Origin: Algisphaera agarilytica
GTDB taxonomy: Bacteria; Planctomycetota; Phycisphaerae; Phycisphaerales; Phycisphaeraceae
DNA length: 64,000 bases
NCBI RefSeq assembly: GCF_014207595.1
Contig: NZ_JACHGY010000001.1
Location: 3,690,212 to 3,754,211 of the forward strand
Reading direction: 5' to 3'
Shown here: piece after piece, positions 35,444 through 60,717 of the stretch
Position numbering within the stretch: position 1 is the stretch's first letter
How the letters are laid out: the number at the start of each line of letters is the position of its first letter
The notes under the pieces: generated by a model
What the model saw: only the letters and a program-made list of their open reading frames with translations
What the model was told of the DNA's origin: nothing
Database searches by the model: none
Position numbers and translations under genes: made by a program

Positions 35444-36208
35444 CTAAAATCGGGACTCGCCGATCTGAACATCATTCAAAAATAAAAAATCGCGAAATGT
35501 ATATGAGAGTTCGACTATGGACTTGTCTCCAGAAAGAGATCTAAGCAAGCTTTGCGTAGGGAATTCGTAAACAAATCCCAATCTTGTATTTAGAAACGCG
35601 ACGTTTTCCCATGTATCACCATCACGCATGAAACGCAGAAGTATGTAGGTAACAACTTGACGGATGTCCTTTGAAGTTAAGTTGCGGTTGACAGCTTTGA
35701 CTTCAACAAGGAAATGGCTTGTGGCTAAATCAATTTGTACCGGGGACAGAAAGCCCGCACCAGGCAGATTCAGAGCATATCTGGCAGTTGCTGAATCGGC
35801 GAGGCTGGCTCTGTAGACCTCCTGCCGATATGCCAAGCGCATCGCTTCGCGTACTTCCAGGGAAGAAAGTCCATCCGAGAAATCTACGATCTCGGTGGAA
35901 AAACGCTTGGCTGATTCAATTGCAAGAGATGATGCTGTGCCGAGCATTTCCGGGTCATTGACCACGTCGGCTACATGCACAAATTGTTCGTAGGCGATAC
36001 GCGCTATGTGGTAGCCTGTTTCAGCTATAACGGCGGGGTCGCGTGTTTCAGCTGACATCTCAACAGGCCCCAAAGGTTTGCCATCCTCAATGAGAGCTCG
36101 CTGGGAATCACATGTGTTGATTACATGAACTACAGACGGCGTAAGCATCGGCAAGAGTTCATTCCAAAAACTCTTGAATTTTTGACTGAGTAATCTTTCG
36201 TCAATCAT
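35444..36208 (-). CDS. Unknown protein with PD-(D/E)XK-like motif, coupled to the reverse transcriptase
   Basis: 254 residues from ATG 36208; the start overlaps the stop of the reverse transcriptase as ATGA, so the two are translationally coupled. The N-terminal 150 residues are helical and unrecognised. Residues 157-190 (QIDLATSHFLVEVKAVNR, then SKDIRQVVTYIL) show Asp160, Glu169-x-Lys171 and Gln184, the pattern of a restriction-endonuclease-like fold with the usual QxxxY helix. I predict a nuclease-like effector or DNA-binding partner. No family name is recognised. The gene is AT-rich relative to the chromosome. Confidence 0.6.
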   Translation of the reverse strand: MIDERLLSQKFKSFWNELLPMLTPSVVHVINTCDSQRALIEDGKPLGPVEMSAETRDPAVIAETGYHIARIAYEQFVHVADVVNDPEMLGTASSLAIESAKRFSTEIVDFSDGLSSLEVREAMRLAYRQEVYRASLADSATARYALNLPGAGFLSPVQIDLATSHFLVEVKAVNRNLTSKDIRQVVTYILLRFMRDGDTWENVAFLNTRLGFVYEFPTQSLLRSLSGDKSIVELSYTFRDFLFLNDVQIGESRF

Positions 36209-37812
36209 ACTGTTATGCCTGCCGTGTCCGGACGACTGCTGAACCAATCACGTATTAGTAATTCTTTGGAATTCCAACTCCACTTCGAATTTTTTCTCCA
36301 ATGGCTGCCCTCATCGGTCAAGGCATAAGACGAAATGATTACAGCCCCGCGTTCCCAAGATGTTAAATCTGAGAAGCGTGCCCGCAAGCTTGTGAGCCAA
36401 TAATCCCGCTTCCATTTTGCCATCGCAAGAATTATGAGGCGGCGGACCAAAGGGTTGCTATGCGTGTTATATATCGAAACTAAGAATTGCTCTTTCTTAT
36501 CGGTATAGTCGAAGGCCAAGCACTGTATGAAGTACATTAGATGCAAGTCTACGTCTAATTGCGGAAGCTTAGCATCAATTAAATCATGCAGAAGAATGTC
36601 GATTTGATTTCTCTGAGTATTCGATAAGTTCGGAATAGTTGATCTTACAACGCGAAGCACTGTCGATAAGACTGGGCTTAGCGTCGATAAGTTGTTTCGG
36701 TCTAGGATTGTCTGCAATGCGCCAGTTTGCAACGTATTGTTAGGCAGTAATCGTACTGCGTTAAGCGCTTGCTTTGTGACACTTGTATCCACTACGGTTT
36801 TATTGAGTTCACGTGCAAGAATGCTAAGAATGTCAATTTCGTTTATTGCTGAGCGTAGATTCTCGTAGTCTTCTTCCGCGGTCGGGGAGTAAGGGTCAAA
36901 CCGAATTGATATGTTAAGTAGCTTGTCTTCGTCAGTAATGATAGATGTGGCGCGAGACTGATCGAATGGGCGCGACATCTCGATAAATTCTGCTTGTGTA
37001 AGTATTCGCGTCTTCGATTTCTGTAGCGCCAAGCCTTCCAGCTTTAGTTTGTCCGACAAAAACTTAATTGTCCCATAAGCTTCGGCATCAGAATCGCAAA
37101 AGAACGTGAAGTCATCTGCATAGCGAGCGTAACTTCGATTTAGATCGACAGCTAGATGTTGGTCTATGTTAACAAGCGACAGCTCGGCAAGAATACGGGA
37201 TGCTGGTCCGCCAACAGGCAGTCCATATGAGAAGCCGTTAGAAAATATCGCAAGAAGTTTCAGTATCTGTGTTTTTGTGTCGCTGTTGATACCCAACCGC
37301 TGTAGTAAGTTCTCGATCCTATGGTGCGATATTCGAGGGTAGAAATCGGCTATATCGGTCACCAGTACAACCGCATGGTCCCGCGCTAGTTGGAGGCAGT
37401 GCTCCTTGTATTGCCGCCAAGAAACATCAGAAAATATTTTACTGTCACCGTCATTCCAGGCGTATCTATATGAGTACACTTGGGCATTGGTGATTGGAGA
37501 GCGCGCTGATTCAACTTCATCGGCTATGGATAGCACTAACGCGAGATAGTAGGCATTCCAGTACGGATCGATTTGAGTGGTCCACCGAAATCCTGTGTAG
37601 CCTACTTGCGATAATGCTTGGATGAATCTGGGTGGATCGTCGGAAATCGCGCGGTCAAAATCTGCAAACATGCCTTCTAATATTGCAGCACATTCATTTT
37701 CTTTTTCGTGAAAAATGTCCTTCTCATATGAGAAAGGAAACACATCTGTATCCCCATATTTCCCTATATTTTTAATTGAACGTTTAGCTGCTTCTGCGAA
37801 TAGCAATGGCAT
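36205..37812 (-). CDS. Reverse transcriptase of the unknown-group/Abi type
   Basis: 535 residues. The N terminus has a KYGDTDVFPF block. The polymerase motifs are VTDIADFYPRIS (motif A, Asp153), GLPVGGPASRILAEL (motif B, 197-211) and RYADDFTFF (motif C, YADD at 231-234); both catalytic Asp are intact. The C-terminal 250 residues are helical and HEAT-like (TSWERGAVIISSYALTDE near the end), as in abortive-infection and DRT enzymes rather than group II introns: no maturase X domain or HNH. No msr-msd RNA is seen next to it, so a retron is unlikely. It overlaps the recombinase gene by 29 bp and the PD-(D/E)XK-like gene by 4 bp. Anti-phage defence is the likely role, inferred. Confidence 0.85.
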   Translation of the reverse strand: MPLLFAEAAKRSIKNIGKYGDTDVFPFSYEKDIFHEKENECAAILEGMFADFDRAISDDPPRFIQALSQVGYTGFRWTTQIDPYWNAYYLALVLSIADEVESARSPITNAQVYSYRYAWNDGDSKIFSDVSWRQYKEHCLQLARDHAVVLVTDIADFYPRISHHRIENLLQRLGINSDTKTQILKLLAIFSNGFSYGLPVGGPASRILAELSLVNIDQHLAVDLNRSYARYADDFTFFCDSDAEAYGTIKFLSDKLKLEGLALQKSKTRILTQAEFIEMSRPFDQSRATSIITDEDKLLNISIRFDPYSPTAEEDYENLRSAINEIDILSILARELNKTVVDTSVTKQALNAVRLLPNNTLQTGALQTILDRNNLSTLSPVLSTVLRVVRSTIPNLSNTQRNQIDILLHDLIDAKLPQLDVDLHLMYFIQCLAFDYTDKKEQFLVSIYNTHSNPLVRRLIILAMAKWKRDYWLTSLRARFSDLTSWERGAVIISSYALTDEGSHWRKNSKWSWNSKELLIRDWFSSRPDTAGITV

Positions 37813-39031
37813 TGCTCATCTCTGTTTGGGGGTGGAGGTTCTTAGGTGATAAGCCTGGAAATTCAATTTCGCTCAGCATCGTTTCGGGCGCAAGACTTGC
37901 ATAATGTCGGCGACATATCTCGGGCGAATTACCCATAAGCGAACTCACTTTGAACAGGCTTACACCGTTTTGGGCAAGCTGGCTGCCGAAAGTATGCCGG
38001 TAATCCAAACAACCCCATTGAAGGCTTAGATCTTTGTTCACTCGCCGCAAGTCCCGCGAAAACCCATCCCCATCCCACCAGCACCCCATCGGTGATGGGA
38101 AAAACCACCCCCGGAAGCTGTCGGAGGTCTTGGGTGAGTGGGTTGCGGGTGGTGAGTAGCGGTCGAGGAAGGATCGCAACGCGCGGCTGATCGGCACCAC
38201 CCGATTGACTTTCGTCTTGGGCTCCCAGAATCGTCCGTCGATGGTTTTTGCTCGTAGCCGGATCAAGCCGTGCCCCCCATGTCTTCTGGAAAGGTCTACA
38301 TCGTCTAGTGTAAGCCAAAGCAGCTCTTCACGCCGTAATCCTGCGTAGATGAGGGTCGCAACCATCTTCTGCATCTGGGGTTTGAAGCGCAGAGCATCGA
38401 GCTGTTCGTCGATCTGGGTAAGGCTGAGGTAGCGGATTTGCGGGGCGTGCTCCCGGTGTCGTTCGACCTTGGTGGCGGGGTTGATGTTGCCCGGCATCCG
38501 GATGATGCCTTGATCCATCGACCAGTTGAACAGGCGGCAGACGATCTCCCGGTAGCGGTTGGCCGTCTTCGGGGCGAGCCCACGGCTACGGACGTGGCTG
38601 TCGATGAACTGCTGGATGTCGGCGGTGGTGATGGCCTCGAAGTGGTTCGCCTCGATGATGCGGGCCCGCCGCCGTCGATCGCCACCTTCCTTGACGGGGC
38701 GTTTGCGGGTCTTGGCCGACGGGTTGCGACTGGTGATGCGTACCGCCTCGCAGCATTCCCCGAATGCTTCTCTTAAGTAGTAGACGTCGGTCTGGGCTGA
38801 CTTGGCGGTCTTAACGGTGCGGATGTGCTCGACATATTGCTCGACCACCTTACCGATGGGCGTGCGGGTCGGCAGGGGGTTGCCGTTGCCCTGGGCTTGG
38901 GTGTTCTCGATCTCGCGTAGCTTGGCTTTTGCGATCTGGAGCGAGTCGGTTTTCAGGGTGCGGCGGACTTGTCGGCCACCGATGTAGAGCTGAGCGTAGT
39001 AGATGCCGTTGCGTTTCTTGAGCGATGCCAT
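37784..39031 (-). CDS. Tyrosine recombinase (integrase) of the element
   Basis: Site-specific recombinase of 415 residues, next to the tRNA as expected. An N-terminal arm-binding domain (MASLKKRNGIYYAQLYIGGR) and a SAM-like core-binding domain (about 55-190) precede the catalytic domain. Catalytic residues are visible: Arg in AGLRREELLWL, Lys in the following beta-hairpin (KTKVNR), D-x-x-R as LDYRHTFGS (Asp replaces the more usual His), His in EICRRHYA and Tyr in the same HY pair. The gene lies 75 bp from the right attachment repeat and is read away from the tRNA. Its end overlaps the reverse transcriptase gene by 29 bp, so integration and defence genes may share a transcript. Confidence 0.92.
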   Translation of the reverse strand: MASLKKRNGIYYAQLYIGGRQVRRTLKTDSLQIAKAKLREIENTQAQGNGNPLPTRTPIGKVVEQYVEHIRTVKTAKSAQTDVYYLREAFGECCEAVRITSRNPSAKTRKRPVKEGGDRRRRARIIEANHFEAITTADIQQFIDSHVRSRGLAPKTANRYREIVCRLFNWSMDQGIIRMPGNINPATKVERHREHAPQIRYLSLTQIDEQLDALRFKPQMQKMVATLIYAGLRREELLWLTLDDVDLSRRHGGHGLIRLRAKTIDGRFWEPKTKVNRVVPISRALRSFLDRYSPPATHSPKTSDSFRGWFFPSPMGCWWDGDGFSRDLRRVNKDLSLQWGCLDYRHTFGSQLAQNGVSLFKVSSLMGNSPEICRRHYASLAPETMLSEIEFPGLSPKNLHPQTEMSNAIAIRRSS

Positions 39032-39105
39032 AGGTGATCTCCGGGCTGTGGGGGACAGGTTCCGGCGAGTCCTAAGGTTTGGCGGGTAGGGGTCAGAACG
39101 GGGTA

Positions 39106-39245
<140 letters not shown>

Positions 39246-39377
39246 ATCTGGGTCGATGACTATAGACATCGGCTACTGCAGTGTCAAATCTTCGTGAATC
39301 TCACCCGTGGGCCGGTCGACTCGCCCGCCGTATTGGGGAAAACCGGGTAGGCAGGGACTGACAGACATCGAAAGGGG

Positions 39378-46492: not shown

Positions 46493-48418
46493 TTACTGCA
46501 GTACGCCTTGCTCACGCAGCAGCACCATGATCTTCTCGACGCATTCGTCGATCGACAGATCGTTGGTCGCCAAACGGAGCGCCGGGGACTCGGGAGCCTC
46601 ATACGGCGCGGCCATGTCGCTGAACGCGGCCATGTTCGAGCCTTCTTCCTTGGCGCGTTCCTTGCAGACGTCTTCGGGGGCATCGGTGAATATCTCGAAG
46701 AACCGGTCTTCGCCGACGATCTCCTTGGCCGTCGCGCGGTCATCAGCCGAAGGCGAAAGGAACGCACACACCGTGATCAGGCCCGCGTGGTTCGCGGTCT
46801 TGGCGAGCTCTGCGGCACGGCGGAGGTTCTCGGCACGGTCGGCATCACTAAAGGTCAGGTCGGACGATAAGCCCAAGCGGGTGTTGCGGCCGTCGATCGC
46901 CAGGGGCGTATAGCCTTCGTCGAAGAGGCGACGCTCCAGGGCGTAGGCGACGGGCGACTTGCCCGAGCCGGTGAGGCCGGTGATCCAGACGGTGGCGGGT
47001 TGCTGCTTGAGGCGGGTCGCGCGCTCTTCGTCAGAGATCAGCGAAGAGTGCTGACGGGCTTCGGTCGCCAGCGACTGGGCCAACTGCTCACGAGCCACTT
47101 GCTTGGCCGTGGTCGACTGGTCGAGGATCATGCCCGCGGCGATGGTGTTGTTGGTCAGGCGGTCGATGACGATGAAGCCGCCGGTGCCGCGGTTCTTCTT
47201 GTACGGGTCGAACGCGATGGGGCGGGCGAGTTCGATGACGACCCGCCCGATCTCGTTGAGTTCGAGGGTGGGGGCGTTGTCGTCTTTGTGCAACGTGTTG
47301 ACGTCCATGCGGTAACGAAGGTCGGAGATCACGCCGGGGGTTTGACGGGTGGTTTGCTTGATGAGGTACTGCCCGCCGGGTTTCATGGCGTCTTCGCTCA
47401 TCCAGACCAACATCGCTTCGAAGGCCTGAGCGACCTGCGGCTGGTTGTTCACGTGGACGAGCATGTCGCCACGGCTGACGTCGACTTCGTCTTCGAGCGT
47501 GATCGTGGGCGACATCGGGGCGAAGGCTTCGTCAACCTCGCCGTCGAACGTGACGATCGATTTCACTTTCGAGGTCTTGCGCGAGGGCAGGACCATGACT
47601 TCGTCGCCGGGGCGGACGATACCCGAGGCGAGCGTGCCCGCGAAGCCGCGGAAGTCGAGGTTGGGGCGGTTGACGTACTGAACAGGGAACCGCAGGTCGA
47701 TGAGGTTGCGGTCGCTGCCGATGTAGACGGTTTCGAGCAGGTGCATCAGCGTGCCGCCGTCGTACCAGGGCGTGTGCTCGCTGGCGTTGACGACGTTGTC
47801 GCCGTTAAGGGCGGACATGGGCACGAAGCGGATGTCGGGCAGGTCGAGCTTGGCCGAGAACGCGGCGTATTCCTGCTTGATCTCGTTGAAGCGGTCCTCG
47901 GAAAAGTCCACGAGGTCCATCTTGTTCACCGCGACAATCACGTGCTTGATGCCCAAGAGCGACGCGATAAACGAGTGGCGGCGGGTCTGGGTCTGCACGC
48001 CGTGGCGGGCGTCGATCAGGATGATCGCCAGGTCGGCGGTCGAGGCGCCGGTGGCCATGTTGCGGGTGTACTGCTCGTGGCCAGGGGTGTCGGCGATGAT
48101 GAACTTACGCTTGGTCGTCGAGAAGTAGCGGTAGGCCACGTCGATGGTGATACCTTGCTCGCGCTCGGCCTTAAGGCCGTCGGTCAGCAGGGCGGGGTCG
48201 AACGTGCCCCCGGTCGTGCCGAACTTCTTGGAGTCGACCTCGAGCGACGCGAGCTGGTCTTCGTAAACCATCTTCGAGTCGTAGAGCAGTCGGCCGATGA
48301 GGGTCGACTTGCCGTCATCCACGGACCCGCAGGTCAGGAAGCGCAGCAGCTCTTTCTGTTCGTGCTGCTTGAGGTAAGCGTTGATGTCGGTGGCGATCAG
48401 TTCGCTTTGGTGGCTCAT
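46493..48418 (-). CDS. cysNC: Bifunctional sulfate adenylyltransferase subunit 1 / APS kinase
   Basis: 641-residue fusion used in sulfate activation. The N-terminal GTPase (CysN, about 1-440) has [17 protein letters not shown] (P-loop), DTPGHEQY (G3) and NKMDL (G4); it drives ATP sulfurylation by CysD. The C-terminal APS kinase (CysC, about 460-641) has P-loop GLTGSGKS and the family block [20 protein letters not shown]; the usual D-x-D-N-x-R is changed to DGRNTR, which might affect APS binding. The gene lies downstream of cysD but is separated from it by a four-helix-bundle cassette. A short IR lies 5 bp before the start. Confidence 0.95.
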
Positions 48419-48422
48419 GGTG

Positions 48423-48450
48423 TAGGCGCTAGGGGTTAGGCGCTAGGCGC
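48423..48450. repeat. Left 28-bp inverted repeat flanking the four-helix-bundle gene
   Basis: Begins TAGGCGCTAGG and contains two further copies of GGCGCTAGG. It matches the reverse complement of 48842-48869 at 26 of 28 positions. Confidence 0.8.
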
Positions 48451-48818
48451 TAGGTGGTGGTTTGGGACTGGATCAGTCGGGTCAGGAGTTTTCCGACATC
48501 CTGGGTTAAGGTCCATGCGGGTTTGATCTGGTCTCTTGATTGCTGGTTGCAGCGGACGGTGAGTTCAATCTGGGTTTCGAGTTCGGCGAGTGAGCCTCGG
48601 GCGTATCTCAGATGTTTGGCGTAGTCTTTTCCGGCTCCTCTGCCGTAGCCCTCAGCAATGTTGGAGGGGATGGAGACGGCAGCTCGTTGCATCTGCGATA
48701 TCAGGCCAAAACGTTCGGATTCGGGCAACTCCATGCAGAGCTTGTATACGGCCTCACAAAGCTCCATCGATTTCTGCCAGGCAATCAGCCCCCGATACCC
48801 ATGCGTCTCATCGCCCAT
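48450..48818 (-). CDS. Four-helix-bundle protein (S23/IVP family)
   Basis: 122 residues, all helical. The N-terminal HGYRGLIAWQKSMELCEAVY with LPESERFGLISQMQRAAVSI, PSNIAEGYGR and LRYARGSLAELETQIEL is the classical pattern of the 23S rRNA intervening-sequence protein family, also related to the Avd accessory protein of diversity-generating retroelements. Function is unknown. It sits exactly between cysD and cysNC, and 28-bp inverted repeats of GGCGCTAGG flank it, which makes it look like an inserted cassette that keeps both neighbours intact. No reverse transcriptase or variable repeat is nearby. Confidence 0.9.
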   Translation of the reverse strand: MGDETHGYRGLIAWQKSMELCEAVYKLCMELPESERFGLISQMQRAAVSIPSNIAEGYGRGAGKDYAKHLRYARGSLAELETQIELTVRCNQQSRDQIKPAWTLTQDVGKLLTRLIQSQTTT

Positions 48819-48841
48819 GACAACCCCCGAAAAACGACCGA

Positions 48842-48869
48842 GCGCCTAGCGCCGAATCCCTAGCGCCTA
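48842..48869. repeat. Right 28-bp inverted repeat flanking the four-helix-bundle gene
   Basis: Reverse complement of 48423-48450 with two mismatches. It lies 1 bp past the cysD stop codon. Confidence 0.8.
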
Positions 48870-48870
48870 T

Positions 48871-49782
48871 TTAGTAGTACCCCTGCTTCTTCTTCTCTTC
48901 CATGCCGGCACCGGGGTCTTTGTCGACGGTGCGGCCTTCGCGTTCGCTGCGGGTGGCGAGCAACATTTCCTGGATGATCAGGGGCAGGTCGCGGGCTTCG
49001 CTGCGGGTGGCGCCCGAGAGCGGGTAGTCGCCGAGGGTGCGGAAGCGGACCCATTCTTTCTTGGCGGTCTTGCGCAGGTCTTCGGGCATCCGGTCGTCGT
49101 CGACGGCGATCAGGTTGCCTTCAAACTCCACGACCTCGCGTTCCTCGGCGAAGTAGGCCGGGACGAGCTGGATGTTCTCGAGGTGGATGTACTGCCAGAT
49201 GTCCAGCTCGGTCCAGTTGGACAGCGGGAAGGCGCGGATCTGTTCGCCCTTCTGGACGTTGGCGTTGTAGGTATTCCACAGCTCGGGACGCTGGTTCTTG
49301 GGGTCCCAGGAGTGGTTGCTGTCACGGAAGGAGTAGACCCGTTCTTTGGCGCGGGACTTTTCTTCGTCGCGGCGGCCGCCGCCGAACGCGGCGTCGAAGT
49401 CGTACTTGTCGAGGGCCTGGCGGAGGGCGCCGAGGTTCATCACGTCGGTGAAGACCTTGCTGCCGTCTTTGAAGGGGTCGACGCCTTGCTTGAGGCCTTC
49501 CTCGTTGATGTGGACGAGGCATTCCATGCCCAGCTCGCCGACGATGTAGTCGTCGCGGAAGGTGTACATCGACTGAAAGTTCCAGGTCGTGTCGATCTGC
49601 AGCAGCGGGAAGGGCGGTTTATCGGGGTAGAACGCCTTGCGGGCCAGGTGGAGCATCACGCAAGAGTCTTTGCCGATGGAGAACAGCATCACCGGGTTGT
49701 CAAACTCGGCGACGACCTCACGGATGATATGGATGCTCTCGGCTTCGAGCTGCTTGAGGTGGGTAAGGTTGTGGGATTCCAA
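48871..49782 (-). CDS. cysD: Sulfate adenylyltransferase subunit 2
   Basis: ATP sulfurylase small subunit of the PAPS-reductase-like fold, 303 residues. The core [20 protein letters not shown] is the PP-loop-type ATP site, and [32 protein letters not shown] and [13 protein letters not shown] are typical of CysD. The longest frame begins at 49878, but a TTG at 49782 has a strong AGGAGG site and gives a normal-length protein, so I use it. It partners with the CysN part of cysNC. A four-helix-bundle gene now lies between the two. Confidence 0.93.
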
Positions 49783-50098
49783 CGCGGAGGGCCTCCTGAT
49801 CGGGGGGCGGGTTTCGCTAGGGCTTGGCGTTCCTCGCCGCAATTCGGCCCTAAGACGACACCATAGCCTACTCGGCAAACACGGGCCAACGCATGACCGC
49901 CGATCCGGAAATAGCGGCCGATCCTGCTGCGGGTCGTGACGCCTCGGCAGGTCGATTCGCCCGATAACCGCAAGGCGGCTTGGCGGAGCGGCCGCAATGG
50001 GCTGCCCTGCTCAGACAGGGGGCCAATGTTTGAATCTTGCGGGCACCGCCGCCGGGGTTTACGATCCCCCAAGCCTTGCTGAACCCTGGAGTAGTGAC

Positions 50099-60636: not shown

Positions 60637-60717
60637 GATTTATGATTGATGATTTTTGATTGATGATCTGAAAACCATGAGACGGTGTCGAAAATCACCA
60701 TTCATCAATCATAAATC
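60637..60717. repeat. AT-rich inverted repeat between mreB and mreC
   Basis: Perfect 16-bp arms GATTTATGATTGATGA (60637-60652) and its reverse complement at 60702-60717 with further partial copies of TGATTGATGAT between. It lies 9 bp before the mreC start on the transcribed strand. It contrasts with the GC-rich neighbourhood. Confidence 0.75.

Follow-up and report, generated by a model that had tools for sequence, protein, structure and literature searches.

The window, i.e., the whole stretch of 64,000 nucleotides of the Algisphaera agarilytica genome (G000) that was analysed, holds between cysD and cysNC, neighbouring sulfur-metabolism genes of one operon, a short unit in which a gene of the S23 family lies between two arrays of 7-bp repeats. 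The features at this junction are as follows:

46493–48418, minus strand: cysNC, the downstream gene of the operon, so named in the first-pass annotation; the name fits the sequence by eye, and the P-loop GSVDDGKST was found by eye and by script.
48423–48454, plus strand: heptamer arm at the cysNC start side, reading TAGGCGC TAGGGGT TAGGCGC TAGGCGC TAGG, with a period of 7 (Tandem Repeats Finder).
48450–48818, minus strand: S23 (four-helix-bundle) gene, 122 amino acids, with matches to PF05635 and TIGR02436.
48838–48869, minus strand: heptamer arm at the cysD stop side, in minus-strand reading TAGGCGC TAGGGAT TCGGCGC TAGGCGC TCGG, equal to the other arm at 29/32 positions.
48871–49878, minus strand: cysD, the upstream gene of the operon, given as the listed open reading frame with an uncertain true start; TIGR02039 matches above its cut-off at G000:C1:3739085-3739969.

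The S23 protein of the window scores 115.4 bits against PF05635 (cut-off 33.8) and 115 bits against TIGR02436 (cut-off 24), and structures of relatives have been solved (2gsc, which is XCC0516, and 2rld). The cited part of PMC4990558 describes the function of the S23 protein as unknown and quotes the Xanthomonas S23 as a homopentamer. The Avd proteins of diversity-generating retroelements (PF22296, NF033474) belong to the same broad fold family, and the window protein matches their models weakly, with 25.3 bits (cut-off 40) and 23.6 bits (cut-off 80), respectively. To our knowledge, Avd has no heptamer ends and S23 has no catalytic motif. Phage records yielded no match to the window protein (P0001), and neither sigma-70 promoters nor intrinsic terminators scored above shuffled sequences when the unit was scanned for them.

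The first-pass annotation had described the gene as bounded by 28-bp inverted repeats with 26/28 identical positions, and this is indeed the case (48423–48450 and 48842–48869), with a match that extends to 44 nt at 84% (48423–48466 and 48826–48869). The unit (48423–48869) fills the whole cysD-cysNC gap. Its one outer end lies 1 nt beyond the cysD stop codon (48871–48873), as had been noted, and its other end 4 nt (48419–48422), rather than the reported 5 bp, ahead of the cysNC ATG (48416–48418), which leaves the described clean placement between one stop and one start codon standing. The unit was also rightly said to lack a transposase, as none is recognisable within it. The earlier description overlooked that the arms are tandem 7-bp iterons (TAGGCGC, 4.6 copies at period 7 in 48423–48454 according to Tandem Repeats Finder) and that an 11-mer of this kind recurs throughout the genome. 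The stop codon of the S23 gene itself, TAG at 48450–48452, is contributed by the heptamer arm. A scan of the full window for inverted repeats (gap up to ~480, score of at least 15) produced only two pairs, so that the repeat around the S23 gene is more than a chance match. The second pair consists of:

60637–60661, plus strand: left arm of the GATTTAT/GATTGAT type, 9 nt from the mreC ATG.
60693–60717, minus strand: right arm, 15 nt past the mreB stop codon.

Here, mreB was recognised by eye from its translation and mreC was named by its position beside mreB. The internal 7-bp period amounts to 0.73 for the arms of the S23 unit and 0.83 for the second pair, which encloses no S23 gene; its heptamer is similar to those in the arms of a further S23 gene of G000 (L005). 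Elsewhere in the window, a tyrosine integrase (37784–39031), a DRT8-type reverse transcriptase (36205–37812; PADLOC Drt8, 4.8e-151), an RTasPDDEXK protein (35444–36247; 8.2e-51) and an adjacent tRNA-Met gene (39171–39246) are found, and the region 35444–39246 is probably an anti-phage defence island integrated at the tRNA.

The cysD-cysNC junction was examined in 13 genomes. In G000, G001 and G027 it is occupied by an S23 unit whose arms read TAGGNNN, whereas G045, G047, G043, G020 and G038 have no insert, with stop and start overlapping or at most 14 nt apart, and thus provide the uninterrupted relatives for which the first-pass annotation had suggested looking. G022, G005 and G007 possess spacers without S23, and in G014 cysN was not found in the stretch examined. 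In G023 the junction holds a different S23 gene (FALRVxKLVDALP motif, by eye of a clade with arms) with AAAAGTA-type arms, which is an independent event. The S23 proteins that G000, G001 and G027 share at this site group on a single branch (93/87), and since the three genomes have the insertion in common, it is old, neither recent nor confined to the source genome. Consequently, the mobile cassette postulated by the first-pass annotation finds support for the S23 family, but not as a recent event at this junction. With dN/dS values of 0.19–0.39 (dS up to 1.9, near saturation for one pair) the gene seems to have been kept by purifying selection; the G027 frame has no ATG, GTG or TTG ahead of the domain. 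Within the shared branch the S23 protein of G001 groups more closely with that of G027, from a different genus, than with that of G000, which is a congener of G001 (L265/L077, L085, L002; 96/81).

Junctions with and without an S23 unit are likewise found on plasmids of Cyanobacteria. Anabaena sp. 90 carries an S23 gene with AGGTGAC/AGGGAAC arrays in the cas6-cas4 gap, which measures 23 nt in Nostoc UHCC 0302; in a Dolichospermum plasmid (98.9% identity, 67% query coverage) the spacer at this place is a different one, of ~245 nt, so that it is not a clean empty site. At the same junction, Pseudanabaena galeata possesses S23 with long AAAAGCT-type arrays, vs. 36 nt in strain ABRG5-3. In Nostoc edaphicum an S23 gene with TAGGGAG arrays separates nrdB from nrdA; in Calothrix NIES-4105 (85% identical over 62%) the two genes are 40 nt apart. 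The edges of the units are blurred by the repeats, and the comparison of Nostoc edaphicum with Calothrix is compatible with a target-site duplication. Neither an act of transposition nor the same unit at two sites of one genome was observed. Two Calothrix plasmids (L254, L255) that seemed to record a jump share the same S23 gene, but their neighbouring genes are also in common, and this candidate was rejected.

PF05635 matches occur at 115 places, summed over 61 genomes, of which 83 were examined. When arms are defined by an ungapped score of 14 or more, 63/83 of these loci have flanking inverted repeats, and other S23 genes with such repeats, for which a search had been suggested, are therefore common in related genomes. 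Sixteen of the 20 armless loci fall in three S23 clades, named after the scores had been seen, in which 0/16 loci have arms, as opposed to 63/67 outside them. On a tree of 97 rows the presence of arms is clustered (10 changes vs. 22.4 with shuffled labels), with a single long-branch row with arms (L127) inside one of the armless clades. An independent search of GTDB genomes, based on an alignment of 24 S23 proteins, gave 588 candidates; among the best 80, which come from many phyla, arms were present at 60/79 loci (one having too little flank), vs. 3/237 control anchors elsewhere in the same loci that reached the threshold. Thus, 123/162 S23 loci in total bear arms, the GTDB part being the best 80 of 588. 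On viral contigs the number is 23/29, counted from the scores and including some near duplicates. An initial control with mismatched pairs of loci (95% quantile 11.3, 99% quantile 20.8, maximum 67, with 0/83 S23 loci above the maximum) seemed to be affected by overlapping loci or by pairs with similar heptamers by chance, and was replaced by the same-locus anchors.

The best self-match period of the arms at the 123 loci is 7 in 100 cases, 8 in 21 and 6 in two. The heptamer itself varies from locus to locus (AGTGATG, AGTTAAA, GTCGAAG, TAGGCAG, GGGGACC and others), so that arms are alike within a locus and unlike between loci; a fixed end sequence for all S23 units, GGCGCTAGG, was rejected because the heptamers at other loci are quite unlike it. 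Within a locus the two arms match at 0.90 in register vs. 0.77 when shifted by one unit, with the in-register value higher at 96/101 loci, the register having been picked for the best match, which is a favourable bias. The units share a weak motif, Y-A-G-K-N-N-T (2.41 vs. 1.85–1.93 for permuted units), and are G-rich and point inward. Stop codons in all six frames were considered as the purpose of the arms: the idea is attractive for YTAGG arms, but among the 123 5′ arms only 30 stop in three frames and 41 in none (vs. ~7 and 33 for shuffled arms), which does not yield a general rule.

Heptamers tend to follow the S23 genes of the same genome. The surroundings of the GTDB S23 loci (best 80 of 588; 456,590 bases) yielded five further heptamer pairs, one of which consisted of N only and was discarded; the remaining four (L152, L174, L179, L214) share their heptamer with the S23 unit within ~3 kb. 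The 11-mer TAGGCGCTAGG was counted in 61 genomes and occurs 33 times in G000 and 14 times in G027, which both have S23 arms of that kind, three times in G002, where no S23 was found, and 0–2 times in the other 58. For TAGGCAGTAGG, counted in 37 genomes, the numbers are 96 in G008, which has matching S23 arms, 32 in G000, none of whose five S23 loci has such arms, six in G015, and 0–2 in the remaining 34. The heptamer AAGGTCG is found 0–1 times per genome in 37 genomes, a set that does not contain G026, the genome with the corresponding S23 gene, and this count has no bearing on the link. The sequence GGGAATCGGGAATC is present 140 times in Luteimonas, where the S23 arms are GGGAATC, 42 times in Xanthomonas codiaei and 19 times in Pseudoxanthomonas, where they are GGGACC-like; it was absent from three genomes of other families, and the reversed control gave 0. 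GGGAATC heptamers have been reported as 70 (Xcc) and 75 (Xac) convergent pairs that possibly form G-quadruplexes, in a source whose cited part makes no mention of S23 (PMC4692102). These pairs are G-rich, convergent and intergenic like the arms described here, and the same heptamer flanks S23 in Luteimonas; however, the window arm is TAGGCGC and not (GGGANTN)n, so that the link is one of architecture and of Luteimonas. The TAACTGA heptamers of Beggiatoaceae, cyanobacteria and others, for which the cited part of PMC4679880 likewise does not mention S23, are also 7-bp units, located at gene starts, but they are mostly one-sided direct repeats.

Most heptamer pairs of G000 do not enclose an S23 gene. 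The 33 exact copies of TAGGCGCTAGG in this 4.17-Mb genome (vs. five for the reversed control) represent 11 sites, namely eight exact pairs of a plus followed by a minus copy, one of which is the S23 unit, two sites with decayed partners, and one half. The other ten sites lack S23 and their paired cores measure ~13 to ~130 nt (by eye). G008 contains many gene-less pairs as well, and all exact close pairs in the lists for both genomes are, by reading, G-rich inward. One long one-sided TAGGCAG array (G000:C1:894338-894418) stands apart, no S23 locus with such arms having been found in G000. The first-pass annotation had reasoned that repeats occurring widely without the gene would speak against mobility. 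They do occur in this way, yet as paired solos resembling REPINs, and since they are inverted and built from the same heptamer they do not sink the idea of a mobile unit; in our reading they are compatible with it, as REPIN-like or MITE-like derivatives would be.

Three gene-less sites of G000 were compared with relatives by eye. At L019 the junction is filled in G000; in G001 and G002 it spans ~30 nt and in G005 it is a longer spacer, armless in all three. The L019 core is present as a single copy in its genome, for which reason a gene-less core as a copied unit was rejected. At L033 a convergent pair with a very short core is present in G000 and absent from G001 and G027. Between apt and murA, heptamer pairs of three different heptamers surround an intergenic core (by eye) in G000, G027, G001 and G002, which suggests that arms were replaced in place rather than that a unit was inserted, and it is this result above all that is hard to reconcile with a simple transposon. 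A 17-nt motif of this core (16/17 by eye) is inverted between G000:C1:2110640-2110880 (L014) and G027:C74:10560-10790 (L297), from two genera, for which recombination between the arms could be the cause.

We consider the chances slightly better than even that the unit represents a class of compact insertion elements (~0.45 kb) distributed across bacteria, in which one S23 gene lies within inward-pointing iterons of 7 bp (sometimes 8 bp), approximately Y-A-G-K-N-N-T, and in which the segment is copied between genes with the help of S23. S23, an oligomer, would bind to the heptamers that end its own unit, probably in their DNA form, and the bracketed segment, either gene-bearing or a gene-less pair, would be copied into intergenic gaps with host enzymes; both the movement and the action of S23 on the heptamers are inferred. 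By analogy with RAYTs and REPINs, heptamer-ended units would have S23 as their dedicated factor, and those without a gene would be derivatives. At cysD-cysNC an ancestral insertion would have been retained, which the operon would tolerate because the arms end at the preceding stop and the following start codon. Against such a class speak the S23 clades without arms as well as the TAGGCAGTAGG copies in G000 and the three TAGGCGCTAGG copies in G002 that lack a matching S23.

The main rival is that the heptamer pairs are regulatory or insulating brackets of intergenic regions, i.e., leaders before starts and elements after stops, and that S23 is a factor encoded inside one of them. This is unlikely, but it retains appreciable weight. 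Of the arm edges, 95/211 have a facing stop codon at a distance of −8 to +12 nt, vs. 8/185 control points, a comparison that is biased since many heptamers include stop codons. Likewise, 13/20 edges of the gene-less G000 pairs lie −9 to 15 nt from a called ORF, the other seven being 19–343 nt away (some of the ORFs are doubtful), and both the apt-murA bracket, present in four genomes with three heptamers, and the TAACTGA heptamers of Beggiatoaceae, which occur just ahead of start codons (PMC4679880), would be expected of regulatory elements. However, units are present in one congener and absent from another, also at operon junctions, they can be opposed to the direction of the flanking genes, as in Nostoc edaphicum, and very short cores such as that of L033 leave little space for a promoter.

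If the bracketed segments are instead copied between genes, as we favour, the enzyme could be another than S23. RAYT genes are single genes beside repeats, with many gene-less inverted pairs with short cores and an own repeat type per gene (PMC3116915), and the gene-less inverted pairs across the genomes (11 sites with eight exact pairs in G000, the S23 unit among them, and many in G008) resemble this system. A Y1/RAYT-type transposase or a host reverse transcriptase might thus move the heptamer-ended segments, with S23 as a passenger or minor helper. Y1_Tnp genes are present in 8/8 genomes searched and RT genes in 6/8, and S23 is distantly related to Avd (a weak match, below the cut-off). Yet S23 is not a Y1 transposase, the window protein matching PF05635 and weakly bAvd (Pfam E 0.001), and the arms are direct heptamer arrays with lineage-variable end sequences and not GTAG-tagged palindromes like REP sequences (mean z −0.49; GTAG in 11/123). 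Moreover, it is S23 and not these enzymes that sits between the arms, the heptamers follow the local S23, and G001 and G002 have no RT match. Nothing found links Y1 or RT enzymes to the heptamer ends, although candidate helpers are present, and we regard this alternative as improbable.

A lesser rival is that the arms act in RNA. The intervening sequence in the 23S rRNA of Coxiella burnetii has an S23p ORF in ~430 nt with ~28-bp complementary ends forming a stem, GACAGAT heptamers, and excision by RNase III (PMC4990558). The window unit similarly has an S23 ORF between complementary ends with heptamers near the ends, its arms could form such a stem, and an insertion trimmed from the operon transcript in this way would be harmless. 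Unlike the intervening sequences, which lie inside 23S rRNA and are cut from RNA, it is located between cysD and cysNC, has another heptamer, and its ends apparently matter at the DNA level. Selection for an RNA stem was rejected, as the arm mismatches show no excess of G.U in the S23-sense RNA (77 vs. 108 A.C-type mismatches, with p 0.027 for the reverse trend); in the absence of a G.U bias, the arm likeness looks like a DNA-level property. S23 can also run opposite to its flanking genes, and an RNA role for the arms thus appears very improbable. Slippage of arrays in intergenic DNA with an incidental pairing to S23, which the very long arrays (L203, Pseudanabaena galeata, G000 894338–894418) and the slippage idea cited for heptamers in PMC4692102 might suggest, is scarcely credible given the 60/79 S23 loci with arms (best 80 of 588) vs. 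3/237 anchors, the G-rich inward orientation of every exact close pair in the G000 and G008 lists, and the variant order conserved in both arms.

It is possible, although we regard this as rather doubtful, that S23 genes define a new, bacteria-wide class of mobile elements, the ends of which are read by their 7-bp period (the phase of the AG step) more than by their sequence, each lineage spelling them anew; the Xanthomonas pairs, and perhaps the cyanobacterial arrays, would then be gene-less derivatives, and the intervening sequences of rRNA the best-known insertions. A literature search, mostly outside subscription papers, for a publication joining S23 genes with heptamer repeats gave only PMC4990558, which concerns one locus, and the pattern was found in print only as fragments. 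S23 genes are common, and the heptamer inverted repeats at 123/162 S23 loci give them a testable role, which would join the rRNA intervening sequences with the Xanthomonas GGGAATC pairs and perhaps also with the heptamer arrays known from Cyanobacteria and Beggiatoaceae. Should S23 read the period rather than the sequence, this would be an unusual way of recognising the ends of DNA.
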